Below, one piece after another: positions 4,720 through 14,190 of a stretch of DNA of 14,190 nucleotides. Where the stretch lies: positions 1-14,190 of the forward strand of contig JAUXEA010000005.1 of assembly GCA_030620695.1 (NCBI GenBank), read 5' to 3'. How positions within the stretch are numbered: the first letter of the stretch is position 1; each line of letters opens with the position of its first letter. Source of the stretch: Candidatus Aenigmatarchaeota archaeon. GTDB lineage: Archaea; Aenigmatarchaeota; Aenigmatarchaeia; QMZS01. Made by a program: the position numbers and the translations under genes. The notes below the pieces were generated by a model. It saw only the letters and a program-made list of their open reading frames with translations. It ran no database searches and was not told the origin of the DNA.

Positions 4720-5448
4720 TTAACTATATCTCCTCCTTTTTAATATTTTCTCAAAGACCTCCAAAACACTCGTTTTTCTTTGAAACATTCTTTGTTCAAG
4801 CAAAGCTTGAACATCTTTTCTGCCTTTGGCAGAAAATCTTTTTCCTTCGGGAAAAGATGCATCGTTTTTTCTCTGAAAAAACGAATGAACGGTGCATCGT
4901 TGCGAAGCAACGAATGCTTTCTCTGTTTCTTTTCTTCTGTAACCAGTCAGAAAATATTTCCAACAATCAAATTCTGGATGAACAGACTTGAAGTTTTGAT
5001 ATAAAGTCAGCAAGTCAGATGCTTTCTGCTCTGGACCTTTTGTTTCTATGCCGAGTCCAAAATCTATAAAATAGAGCTCCCTTTTTTTGACAATTAAATT
5101 TGAAGTTGTTAAATCTCCATGAATTATGTCAGCGAGATGCATCTTTGCGATTTCTTCACCGATTTTTCTGCTAAAATTTTTATAATTGTTTTTGTTAAGA
5201 ACTTTTTTTAACTTGCTCCCCTCAACAAATTCCATTTCTATTAGAAATTTTTTTACATCAAACAGAGTGGGAACTTTAACACCAACTCTTTTCACATCTG
5301 ATAATAATTTTGCTTCTTTTTTTGTTCTTGTCTTTCTAAGGAAAATATCAAGTTCTTTTTCCCTGTATTTTTTGCAGATTCTTTCTTTCTTAATTTTCCC
5401 CCTGTCAAGATAAATTTTTGCCTCTGCTCCCTGAGCAATTAGTTTCAT
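4720..5448 (-). CDS. bud32: KEOPS complex kinase/ATPase Bud32, with a palindromic in-frame insertion
   Basis: Bud32 is the small RIO-like ATPase of KEOPS, which with Kae1 makes the t6A37 modification on ANN-decoding tRNAs. The core is complete: the glycine-rich start IAQGAEAKIY (4-13), an acidic/basic alpha-C region, the catalytic loop HGDLTTSN (110-117), the metal-binding DFG (129-131) and the family's C-terminal basic tail, here KILKRRRYS. Bud32 normally runs directly from the GY segment (169-170) into the last helix and tail; here residues of about 178-226 interrupt it. This stretch is encoded by consecutive DNA palindromes (4771-4917), is in frame and has no stop. Without it the protein would be about 193 residues, near the usual size. 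It overlaps flpA by 4 bases (ATGA), implying translational coupling. The catalytic residues are intact, so I call it functional rather than a pseudogene. Confidence 0.93.
   Translation of the reverse strand: MKLIAQGAEAKIYLDRGKIKKERICKKYREKELDIFLRKTRTKKEAKLLSDVKRVGVKVPTLFDVKKFLIEMEFVEGSKLKKVLNKNNYKNFSRKIGEEIAKMHLADIIHGDLTTSNLIVKKRELYFIDFGLGIETKGPEQKASDLLTLYQNFKSVHPEFDCWKYFLTGYRRKETEKAFVASQRCTVHSFFQRKNDASFPEGKRFSAKGRKDVQALLEQRMFQRKTSVLEVFEKILKRRRYS
4771..4917 (-). repeat. Array of short palindromes inserted in frame in bud32
   Basis: Consecutive hairpins on the plus strand. Unit A 4793-4813 has arms of 9 bp and loop AAA. Unit B 4816-4836 has 9 bp and loop TTT. Unit C 4837-4857 has 9 bp with one G-T pair and loop TTC. 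Unit D 4863-4883 has 9 bp and loop TCT. Unit E 4897-4913 has 7 bp and loop GAA, extendable through GCAT/ATGC with one bulged base. A weak 4-bp hairpin TTTC/GAAA lies at 4775-4785. Units D and E share flanks: TGCATCGTT at 4858-4866 and 4893-4901, and AACGAATG at 4880-4887 and 4909-4916. Most full units are 21 bases, seven codons, which preserves frame. The encoded peptide repeats related words (FQRK twice, SFPEGKR, FSAKGRK). The layout recalls Rickettsia palindromic elements inside genes, but I recognise no named family. Confidence 0.85.
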
Positions 5449-12921: not shown

Positions 12922-13472
12922 GCTTTGCCTTTTAAAGCTTCCTTCAACAATTCTTTTAAATACGCATCTGTGTACGCGTCTATAGAATCAGCAAAATGCA
13001 CAATCATTGCCTCAAGTATTAATCCATCAGGTTTTAGATGATTTAAAACAATATGTACAACTTCTTCAGGAAAATTTCTTGCATATAATTCGCAACCAAT
13101 TAACTCCTCGTGAGCTATTAGTTTCCCGACCAATTCATAATTCTTCCCTTTTTTTCTAAAATCAAAAACTCTCATCAAATCATGCAATAATGCTCCTGCA
13201 ATTATATAATCTTTGTTTATTTCGCAATATCTCTGGGCAACAAAATCAGCAATTTCTATTGATAGTTCTGTAACATTTTTTGTGTGCGTCACCAGCCCTC
13301 CTTTCTCCATATGATGCTCAAAGCCCTTGTATCCGGCAGGACTCTCCTCTAATTTAAGAGGTGTATATTTTAGGTTTTTGTTGCTTAATTTAATATCTTT
13401 AAGCAGTTCTTTGGTTTTCTCTCTCAGTTTTTTATCCTCAATTTTGTCAGCCAATTTAAGTAAATCGTTCAT
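12918..13472 (-). CDS. HD-domain phosphohydrolase
   Basis: A 184-residue metal-dependent phosphohydrolase of the HD superfamily. Candidate metal ligands are H63 (LVTHTKNV), H97-D98 (GALLHDLMR) and D162 (VHFADSIDA); further histidines H121 and H145 resemble the extended HD set. The spacing and the late HFADSIDA motif recall the HD domain of YhaM-type 3'-5' exoribonucleases, but the N-terminal OB-fold of that enzyme is missing and the helical region 1-40 replaces it. Coupling with the DHH gene suggests the pair acts on the same nucleic acid or nucleotide. The ATG at 13472 is 27 bases from the divergent tRNA gene, so the two share a promoter region. Confidence 0.87.
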   Translation of the reverse strand: MNDLLKLADKIEDKKLREKTKELLKDIKLSNKNLKYTPLKLEESPAGYKGFEHHMEKGGLVTHTKNVTELSIEIADFVAQRYCEINKDYIIAGALLHDLMRVFDFRKKGKNYELVGKLIAHEELIGCELYARNFPEEVVHIVLNHLKPDGLILEAMIVHFADSIDAYTDAYLKELLKEALKGKA

Positions 13473-13539
13473 AAAATAGTTTTTTAATAAATTAGGTATG
13501 GGTCTGTAGCTCAGCTTGGTTAGAGCGCCGGTCTTATAA

Positions 13540-13604
13540 GGCTGAACTTCCTTTCAACGAAGAAGTTTAATCAAAGAACATATTGGTTCTTGTAAGGCGT
13601 AAAA
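13540..13604 (+). other. tRNA intron 1 (anticodon loop, 37/38 or 38/39)
   Basis: About 65 nt. Exon bases TTAT (13534-13537) pair with GTAA (13599-13602), flanked by three-base bulges AAG (13538-13540) and AAG (13603-13605), a bulge-helix-bulge arrangement. GCT (13541-13543) pairs with GGC (13596-13598) inside. The exact cut may slide one base because A flanks both sides. The outer helix is imperfect: T31 and C32 are not cleanly paired. Two internal hairpins are visible, AACTTC/GAAGTT and AGAAC/GTTCT. Confidence 0.75.
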
Positions 13605-13619
13605 GCCGGAGGTCAAGAG

Positions 13620-13660
13620 TGAACCCTTTTCTTTCTTATAAGGAAGAAGGCTTCATTGAA
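13620..13660 (+). other. tRNA intron 2 (53/54, T-arm)
   Basis: About 41 nt between G53 and T54. The 3' junction has the same AA^T bulge form as intron 3, and CAA (13614-13616) pairs with TTG (13656-13658), giving three of four central pairs, so the bulge-helix-bulge is relaxed. Inside, GAA (13621-13623) pairs with TTC (13652-13654), enclosing a hairpin with stem TTCTT/AAGAA and loop containing TTATAA. The T at 13620 or 13661 can serve as T54, so the junction is uncertain by one base. Confidence 0.68.
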
Positions 13661-13666
13661 TTCAAA

Positions 13667-13712
13667 TCTGGCAAATCAAAGATTTGCAACTTTCCAATTT
13701 GCCAATTGAAAA
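13667..13712 (+). other. tRNA intron 3 (59/60, T-loop)
   Basis: 46 nt. This is the clearest splice motif: T-stem exon pairs form the outer helix, TTCA (13661-13664) pairs with TGAA (13707-13710) as the 4-bp central helix, and the bulges are AAT (13665-13667) and AAT (13711-13713), each cut after the second base. The intron holds two alternative stems: TGGCAAAT/ATTTGCCA (13669-13676 with 13697-13704), or the local hairpin GCAAATC-AAA-GATTTGC (13671-13687). Confidence 0.82.
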
Positions 13713-13726
13713 TCTCTCCAGGCCCA

Positions 13727-13732
13727 TTTTTT
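13727..13732 (+). terminator. Oligo-T after the tRNA
   Basis: Six T immediately follow the discriminator base A73 at 13726, a standard archaeal tRNA gene end. Confidence 0.55.
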
Positions 13733-13752
13733 AAAGCCTTTTAAGTTAAATG

Positions 13753-13762
13753 TATTTAAATA
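13753..13762 (+). promoter_or_regulatory. TATA-like promoter box
   Basis: TATTTAAATA, 16-25 bases before the ATG at 13778, identical in core to the boxes before psmA and the gene at 9719. Confidence 0.6.
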
Positions 13763-13777
13763 CTTAAATTATTATTT

Positions 13778-14122
13778 ATGGGAGATGAAATAGATATATA
13801 TGGGTACAAAAATCCCCACCAGAAAACACTCAGTGATTATGTTGGACTTAACTTTAGAGTAGATATGAGCCAATGGGGGCATATTGTTATCAAAGTAGAA
13901 AATGGAAAGACAAGAGAAACTGAATTAAACATTGAAGATTTACTAAAAGCATATGAATGGAATGGAAAACTAACTGTTGTTTCTGAGAATACTCCTCTTT
14001 CCAGAATTAAAAATGGTATTAAAGAAAGGTGTGAAAACGCTGTTTTTTTCAAAACCTGGGAACCGAAATATAAGAAGTTTAAGAATTATTTAGAAAGATA
14101 TTGGAATGGATTAAATTCTTAA
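13778..14122 (+). CDS. Hypothetical protein, 114 residues
   Basis: I do not recognise a family. It looks soluble, with no hydrophobic helix. The first half is probably beta-rich (LNFRVDMSQWGHIVIKVENGK, about 24-44), and the second half has a helix (NIEDLLKAYEW, 51-61) and a basic, aromatic C-terminal part (WEPKYKKFKNYLERYWNG) that could bind nucleic acid. It has its own promoter box and lies alone between two RNA genes. Similarity to the 114-residue protein at 9719 is limited to length. Confidence 0.72.
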   Translation: MGDEIDIYGYKNPHQKTLSDYVGLNFRVDMSQWGHIVIKVENGKTRETELNIEDLLKAYEWNGKLTVVSENTPLSRIKNGIKERCENAVFFKTWEPKYKKFKNYLERYWNGLNS

Positions 14123-14136
14123 TTTTATTAATTTAT

Positions 14137-14190
14137 GGGCGGATAGTTCAGTAAAACTGCAAACAGTTTTATCATTTAGGCTGTCTTCGC
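14137..14190 (+). tRNA. Possible 5' part of a second tRNA gene, interrupted by a hairpin and cut by the window edge
   Basis: GGGCGGA-TA-GTTC-AGT (14137-14152) has the layout of a tRNA acceptor strand, T8, A9 and D-stem. It is followed at once by an 8-bp perfect hairpin TAAAACTG-CAAA-CAGTTTTA (14152-14171) where the D-loop GG should be. No clean D-stem 3' strand can be placed in the remaining 19 bases. It may be a tRNA with a D-loop intron, but the sequence ends too soon to fold it, and the amino acid cannot be named. Confidence 0.38.

Follow-up and report, generated by a model that had tools for sequence, protein, structure and literature searches.

A predicted tRNA-Ile(UAU) gene with three introns and a six-base exon in an Aenigmatarchaeota genus rich in interrupted tRNA genes

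How often can a tRNA gene be interrupted and still encode a working decoder? The question is raised by a locus in the 14,190-nt stretch of DNA analysed here (the window), which represents contig C35 of a 547-kb genome (G000; 65.6% complete). An initial annotation, based on the sequence alone, had read this locus as a tRNA-Ile(UAU) gene with three introns and had guessed a DPANN host. The guess agrees with the closest named relatives of the 184-aa protein encoded next to the tRNA, namely, seven Candidatus Aenigmatarchaeota MAG loci (74–87% identity); we take this neighbour to be an HD-domain protein. As detailed below, the locus very probably is a functional, apparently single-copy tRNA-Ile(UAU) gene which decodes AUA and would require three bulge-helix-bulge (BHB) splicing events.

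Three introns and a six-base exon

The locus was analysed with a cloverleaf solver that allows optional introns and scores stems, conserved bases and agreement with the BHB rule; each intron costs score and must form at least three of the four central BHB pairs. Under this rule, a central helix of 4 bp is accompanied by 3-nt bulges at both junctions. The three-intron reading ranks first with the final solver, with a score of 31.9 (Table 1), reproducing the introns, their sites and the micro-exon TTCAAA as originally proposed, with intron 1, originally assigned to the anticodon loop, now placed at 38/39. At the canonical 37/38 position, C32UUA35 and CGUA are, by eye, unpaired, and the shift to 38/39 gives four pairs out of four. 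The original grading of the motifs also stands, with introns 1 and 3 fitting the BHB rule (4/4 central-helix pairs each) and intron 2 a relaxed version (3/4). Removal of the introns restores a complete tRNA with its conserved bases, and ARAGORN identifies the spliced 75-nt sequence as tRNA-Ile(tat), in keeping with the isotype assigned before. The sequence by itself leaves an uncertainty of a few bases at junctions 1 and 3 and of a single base at junction 2; junctions 2 and 3 are fixed by the BHB rule together with orthologous introns that have a different first base (intron 2 of L028 and intron 3 of L031). Trans-splicing or permutation was dropped from consideration, since the exons follow one another in the expected order over a span of 227 bases. 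No group I intron core was detected by Rfam, with only tRNA and weak lncRNA matches at E ≤ 1 in positions 13401–14190.

Table 1 Features of the tRNA-Ile(UAU) locus and its surroundings in the window
Feature	Position	Strand	Description	Basis
tRNA-Ile(UAU) gene	13500–13726	+	4 exons (40, 15, 6, 14 nt), 3 introns (65, 41, 46 nt)	cloverleaf solver
Exon 1	13500–13539	+	acceptor 5′ strand, D arm, anticodon stem 5′ strand, loop to A38; anticodon TAT	solver; ARAGORN on spliced sequence
Intron 1 (65 nt), 38/39	13540–13604	+	U33UAU36 with GUAA, 4/4; bulges AA|G and AA|G39	solver; L027, L029 without intron 1
Exon 2	13605–13619	+	GCCGG AGGTC AAGAG (39–53)	solver
Intron 2 (41 nt), 53/54	13620–13660	+	CAAG (48–51) with AUUG, 3/4, relaxed	solver; L048 without intron 2
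Exon 3, 6-nt micro-exon	13661–13666	+	TTCAAA (54–59)	solver; uninterrupted TTCAAATCTC in L028, L029
Intron 3 (46 nt), 59/60	13667–13712	+	UUCA (54–57) with UGAA, 4/4	solver; L027, L028, L029 without intron 3
Exon 4	13713–13726	+	T60, T stem 3′ strand, acceptor 3′ strand, discriminator A73	solver; ARAGORN on spliced sequence
Divergent neighbour gene, 184 aa	12918–13472	−	synteny anchor	
5′ end of second tRNA, probably tRNA-Ala(GGC)	14137–14190	+	15-nt exon, then D-loop intron cut by contig end	by eye

A rival reading would retain the anticodon intron and assume a tRNA with only one or two introns and a degenerate T arm, in which TGAAAAT or a similar sequence serves as the T loop. In the raw, unspliced window, no tRNA is called by ARAGORN and no Rfam family reaches its gathering cut-off; at lax thresholds, the best unspliced alignment to the Rfam tRNA model (21.2 bits; cut-off, 29) contains a single intron and stops at 13638, having started at 13500. 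With early, looser T-loop weights, the two-intron reading with TGAAAAT (31.7) and two others (31.8) came out level; once the weights had been tightened, a solver version unable to fill both 53/54 and 59/60 left other readings at 27.0. The solver was then extended to allow introns at both sites. In this final version, on which the shuffles and the census are based, the three-intron reading wins, whereas the other readings lose T54-T55-C56 or distort the anticodon arm. Moreover, TTCAA(A/G)TCTC is contiguous in L027, L028 and L029. A tRNA with a degenerate T arm is thus very unlikely, and a reading with one intron or none, the latter being an alternative that the initial annotation had considered, scores poorly with both ARAGORN (no tRNA) and Rfam (21.2 bits). 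As a control for the three-intron reading, the 250 bases following exon 1 were dinucleotide-shuffled 160 times with exon 1 fixed; no shuffle reached 31.9 (best, 25.7; 12 without a solution), with a solver that was tuned on this gene itself and rewards BHB pairs.

Orthologues with different intron sets

The comparison with orthologous tRNA-Ile genes that the initial annotation had called for covered nine Aenigmatarchaeota copies, and each of the three introns is missing in at least one of them. All three are present in the window and in L030–L033, introns 1 and 2 in L028, only intron 2 in L027 and L029, where the anticodon loop is uninterrupted, and introns 1 and 3 in L048, a locus from another genus of the family with an intron at 38/39, a 182-nt intron at 59/60 and none at 53/54. 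The G003 copy has introns 1 and 2. Splicing the orthologues at the inferred junctions produces nearly identical mature tRNAs. Given that intron 1 is kept in L048 and L030–L033, L027 and L029 seem to have lost it precisely. Intron gain and loss between close relatives is likewise described for the Caldiarchaeum tRNA-Thr(GGU) in the available portion of PMC3293823; there, a mobile element integrating at a single locus is given as the cause, whereas here many genes and short repeats are concerned.

The central helix of intron 1 has four pairs out of four in L028, L030–L033 and L048. That of intron 2 is equally complete in L027–L033, unlike CAAG/AUUG of the window with its one mismatch, and covaries on both sides (CAAG/CUUG, CAGG/CCUG, CGAG/UUCG), and that of intron 3 is complete in L031 and L048 and has three pairs in L030, L032 and L033. 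In the alignment of the mature tRNAs (six distinct rows), 97.6% of the cells are paired and four of the 21 pairs are doubly changed, three of them in the acceptor stem, that is, between exons 1 and 4. The covariation score was matched by none of 500 shuffles, a figure which is not a probability, and the count of doubly changed pairs was matched by 43 of 500. Among L030–L033, introns 1 and 2 are 90–100% identical to one another.

The same neighbour gene adjoins the tRNA in eight of the nine genus genomes, and in the ninth (G003), the same two tRNAs are found and the contig ends there. In the more distant relatives L034 and L049, a search with a D-arm pattern next to the neighbour gene yielded no such tRNA. 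An assembly artefact, in which repeats were misjoined into a tRNA, might be suspected for a MAG in 122 contigs when the window itself ends inside a repeat; yet the same three intron sites recur in L030–L033, which come from separately named MAGs, leaving this explanation scarcely credible.

The tRNA-Ile(UAU) as the probable sole reader of AUA

AUA accounts for 119 of the 336 isoleucine codons in 17 window ORFs of our choosing. In archaea, this codon is usually read by a CAU tRNA modified by TiaS. TiaS (PF08489) was found in none of 40 genomes (G000 and 39 relatives; 22 of the 40 at least 90% complete, MAG completeness being the limit on this negative result), with four of four archaeal controls positive, and the UAU gene is therefore probably the only AUA reader. 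UAU-type decoding of AUA may be general in the class, TiaS being found in none of these 40 genomes. According to the part of PMC6000648 available to us, tRNA-UAU is present in 2 of 167 archaeal genomes; these two cases, Nanoarchaeum equitans and Korarchaeum cryptofilum, resemble the present one in that a UAU anticodon replaces the modified CAU, and a single intron is described for the Korarchaeum tRNA-Ile(UAU), as opposed to three here (excerpts of PMC6000648 and PMC8450103).

A second, intact UAU gene, which would have weakened the original proposal, was sought and not found among the solved tRNA genes of G000 (65.6% complete), G002 and G003, each of which has one UAU gene. A 13-base anticodon-arm pattern, with one mismatch allowed, hits 11 sites in the nine genus genomes, comprising the expected string once per genome (9/9) and two other one-mismatch matches; the pattern would miss a UAU copy with a different stem, and its reversed control gives 13 matches, so that by itself it is not specific and constitutes a weak test.

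These data bear on whether the locus might be a decaying pseudogene, with AUA read by another tRNA encoded in the unassembled third of the genome. Completeness of 65.6% leaves room for such a tRNA, and one T-stem pair of the gene is non-standard (49-65, A-C, shared with two of the other five distinct mature sequences). On the other hand, each of the nine genus genomes has one copy of the same anticodon string, synteny is kept (eight copies beside the same neighbour gene, and the G003 copy beside the same two tRNAs), compensatory changes are present, and TiaS was not found in the 40 genomes. Furthermore, exon columns have a mean identity of 94%, whereas introns of the window are only 41–72% (introns 1 and 2) and 24–61% (intron 3) identical to their orthologous counterparts. 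Decay of the gene is hence highly improbable, and we regard the locus as a functional tRNA-Ile(UAU) gene. It appears that a small genome can encode a probably essential decoder as four separate exons, the shortest of six bases.

A proposed splicing route and its enzymes

The gene structure, its motifs, the variation among orthologues, the covariation and the presence of EndA and RtcB genes can be read from the sequences; expression, splicing and ligation of tRNA-Ile(UAU) are what these features predict. For each intron, a helix would form between two four-base segments, one in the exon and ending two bases ahead of the junction, the other in the intron and ending two bases ahead of the 3′ junction. 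The endonuclease EndA would cut within the two three-base bulges, and RtcB would join the exons. Intron 2 is expected to leave first, because it splits the 5′ strand of the T stem from the T loop. Following its removal, the T stem (49–53/61–65) would become the outer helix of the intron 3 motif, and the 6-nt exon would close the T loop, whereas intron 1 could be removed independently. In some archaeal tRNAs, one intron must likewise leave before the next BHB forms (PMC8450103, in the section available).

The order of splicing is the weakest step of this scheme. In the minimum free energy (MFE) structure of the precursor without introns 1 and 2, the T stem forms, along with a 3-nt 3′ bulge, UUCAA/UUGAA and the intron 3 hairpin; when introns 1 and 3 are removed but intron 2 is retained, the T stem is absent. 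However, the intron 3 hairpin with UUCAA/UUGAA forms even in the full precursor, with intron 2 present, so that the proposed order depends solely on EndA needing the T stem as an outer helix. No MFE structure that retains intron 1 or 2 contains the central helix of that intron.

A single EndA gene (PF01974) was found in each of eight of the nine genus genomes, including this one, and none was found in the ninth (70% complete). The protein is a single unit with a Lys-rich N-terminal tail of variable length. Alignment of the G000 protein to that of M. jannaschii (1A79) shows that the Tyr-His-Lys catalytic positions, which we take to be the EndA catalytic triad, are kept. Between the Tyr and the His lies a Lys/Arg-rich insertion, VKLKRGPKTLR, which aligns with insertions in the proteins of N. 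equitans (3IEY_A) and ARMAN-2 (4FZ2) and has no counterpart in 1A79 nor, among the matches listed, in 2CV8, a Sulfolobus enzyme. Such loops are tied to relaxed recognition in the part of PMC12397907 at hand. RtcB is present in all nine genus genomes. In G002, RtcB (G002:C2:39426-42179) is matched in two pieces, 1–50 and 49–426, within one 965-aa open frame, which suggests an intein.

Intron saturation of tRNA genes in the genus

The initial annotation deemed three introns unusual for such a genome. Our census contradicts this: all 22 distinct solved tRNA genes of G000 are interrupted, 11 by one, eight by two and three by three introns (36 in total). Among the matches listed, introns are present in 17 of the 20 tRNA genes of the congener G002 and 18 of the 21 of G003. 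Duplicate entries of one gene were merged before counting (23 to 22 and 23 to 21). Of the 23 Rfam tRNA matches in G000, 19 gave a solution, leaving four unsolved (C85, C52, C121:8455, C96), the match on C85 being left out as a tRNA-Leu with one intron that scores 21.9, below the threshold of 27; three of the 22 genes were taken from repeat loci (L098, L103, L120), and the anticodon of L120 is uncertain. The C52 match (L016, G000:C52:2440-2519; 80 nt, 25.4 bits), which gave no solver solution, has good acceptor and T stems and an odd D and anticodon arm, and is possibly intron-free or no tRNA.

The 87 introns solved in the three genomes are most frequent at 59/60 (17), 53/54 (15), 37/38 (14) and 15/16 (11), as placed by the solver, and neighbouring positions (56, 54, 36) may represent the same sites as these main clusters. 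Two genes interrupted in G000, those for tRNA-Ile(GAU) and tRNA-Gly(GCC), lack introns in both G002 and G003. In G000 and G002, tRNA-Gln(UUG) also has three introns (L103, L173). The window itself contains the start of a second tRNA gene (Table 1), and GGC tRNAs adjoin tRNA-Ile(UAU) in L144 and L164 as well.

Such genes are poorly visible to ARAGORN and Rfam. Strong Rfam tRNA matches (E ≤ 1e-9) number one in G000, 1–11 per genus genome and 0–47 over 85 genomes, in a survey with stricter filters, with up to 50 candidates scored per genome, which measures detectability and not introns as such. Three class relatives (G025, G042, G076; 74–87% complete) have no Rfam tRNA match at E ≤ 1e-9, and their tRNAs may be still more disrupted. 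That ARAGORN and Rfam see few intact tRNAs in these genomes could distort inferences of completeness and codon reading.

Multi-intron tRNAs are already known in archaea, and what is new is their occurrence in a lineage for which we found no report: a search by title outside subscription papers retrieved no paper on tRNA introns in Aenigmarchaeota, Aenigmatarchaeota or DPANN. Thermoproteales, to which the initial annotation had mainly confined such tRNAs, have up to three introns per tRNA gene and intron transposition, and multi-intron tRNAs are listed for Nanoarchaeum and ARMAN (PMC4033280 and PMC4090602, in the passages available). As in Thermoproteales, a tRNA gene of this genus can have as many as three introns, non-canonical positions are used, and similar introns are shared among tRNAs (Sugahara 2008 and Fujishima 2010, as relayed in parts of PMC4033280, PMC8450103 and PMC4090602). 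The genus differs in being a DPANN lineage with one PF01974 gene found, in contrast to the two-subunit enzyme of Crenarchaeota, and in that a repeat which occurs between genes as well is matched by some of its introns. Other archaea, too, are reported to have multi-intron tRNAs in abundance: in three genomes of the Asgard lineages Atabeyarchaeia and Freyarchaeia, 92–95% of tRNA genes are interrupted, over half of them several times and often at non-canonical positions (PMC11291895, in the available text). The figures obtained here (22/22, 17/20 and 18/21 solved genes, the latter two among the matches listed) come from an unrelated lineage.

A dispersed repeat inside and outside tRNA introns

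A 66-base probe taken from beside a tRNA has 53 matches in G000 at E ≤ 10 and 22 at E ≤ 1e-5. This dispersed repeat is palindromic, partly tandem, and located both between genes and in tRNA introns of G000 (loci L097–L126 included); the incomplete intron of the tRNA gene at 14137–14190 also contains a dispersed repeat (match at 14154–14178). Among 30 copies examined, six lie in tRNA introns (L098, L099, L103, L120, L121, L124), 14 between ORFs, and ten are unclassified. None of the 14 copies away from tRNAs, which were picked by eye from the 30, overlaps an ATG-started ORF of at least 80 aa. Compared with the introns at E ≤ 1e-3, these 14 copies match 14 of 87 (10/36 in G000, 2/27 in G002, 2/24 in G003), and reversed copies match none of the 87. 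Furthermore, 12 of the 36 G000 introns match sequence outside solved introns in repeat loci, part of which may be unsolved tRNAs, for example, L125. All but one of the 14 matches share the orientation of the tRNA, and nine reach the left end of the element, which begins there 0–6 bases from the 5′ splice site. Cases that do not fit a simple picture are tRNA-Val(GAC), where the element begins about 19 bases in, tRNA-Thr(GGU), where the left part differs, and L026, where the element is antisense.

Saturation in a DPANN genus together with introner-like repeats is unexpected. One possible explanation, which we put forward tentatively and consider rather less probable than not, is that the short palindromic repeat acts like an archaeal introner: intergenic and intronic copies would be the same element, and its insertion at D-, anticodon- or T-loop sites would make BHB introns, because its left end lies 0–6 nt from the 5′ splice site and its 3′ end would supply the bases completing the BHB helix. 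Through recurrent insertion, the tRNA genes would have become saturated with introns, giving rise to multi-intron genes with micro-exons. The introns of tRNA-Ile(UAU) would then be older, diverged products. Comparison of these three introns with the dispersed-repeat loci produced no match, and hence the proposal concerns the lineage and not these three introns; intron 2 has a 13-nt match with two tRNA-Thr(CGU) introns (E 0.001).

The mechanism of archaeal tRNA intron transposition is called unknown in the available part of PMC4090602. We found no report of tRNA introns matching an intergenic repeat in the literature covered, which does not extend to Fujishima 2010. Because close relatives display filled and empty sites in many tRNA genes, and one sequence family is both intronic and intergenic, intron gain and loss could be studied directly here.

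A repeat match also occurs in a protein-coding gene of the window. The 242-aa kinase gene at 4720–5448 on the minus strand, Bud32-like in our reading, carries an in-frame insertion of about 50 codons (~4767–4917) near its 3′ end, which is absent in seven of eight aligned congeners; the eighth (L142) loses frame there. A BHB intron was considered for this insertion and rejected, its ends being unpaired by the rule (by eye), and the insertion is treated as translated. It holds a 19-nt perfect match to a dispersed repeat.
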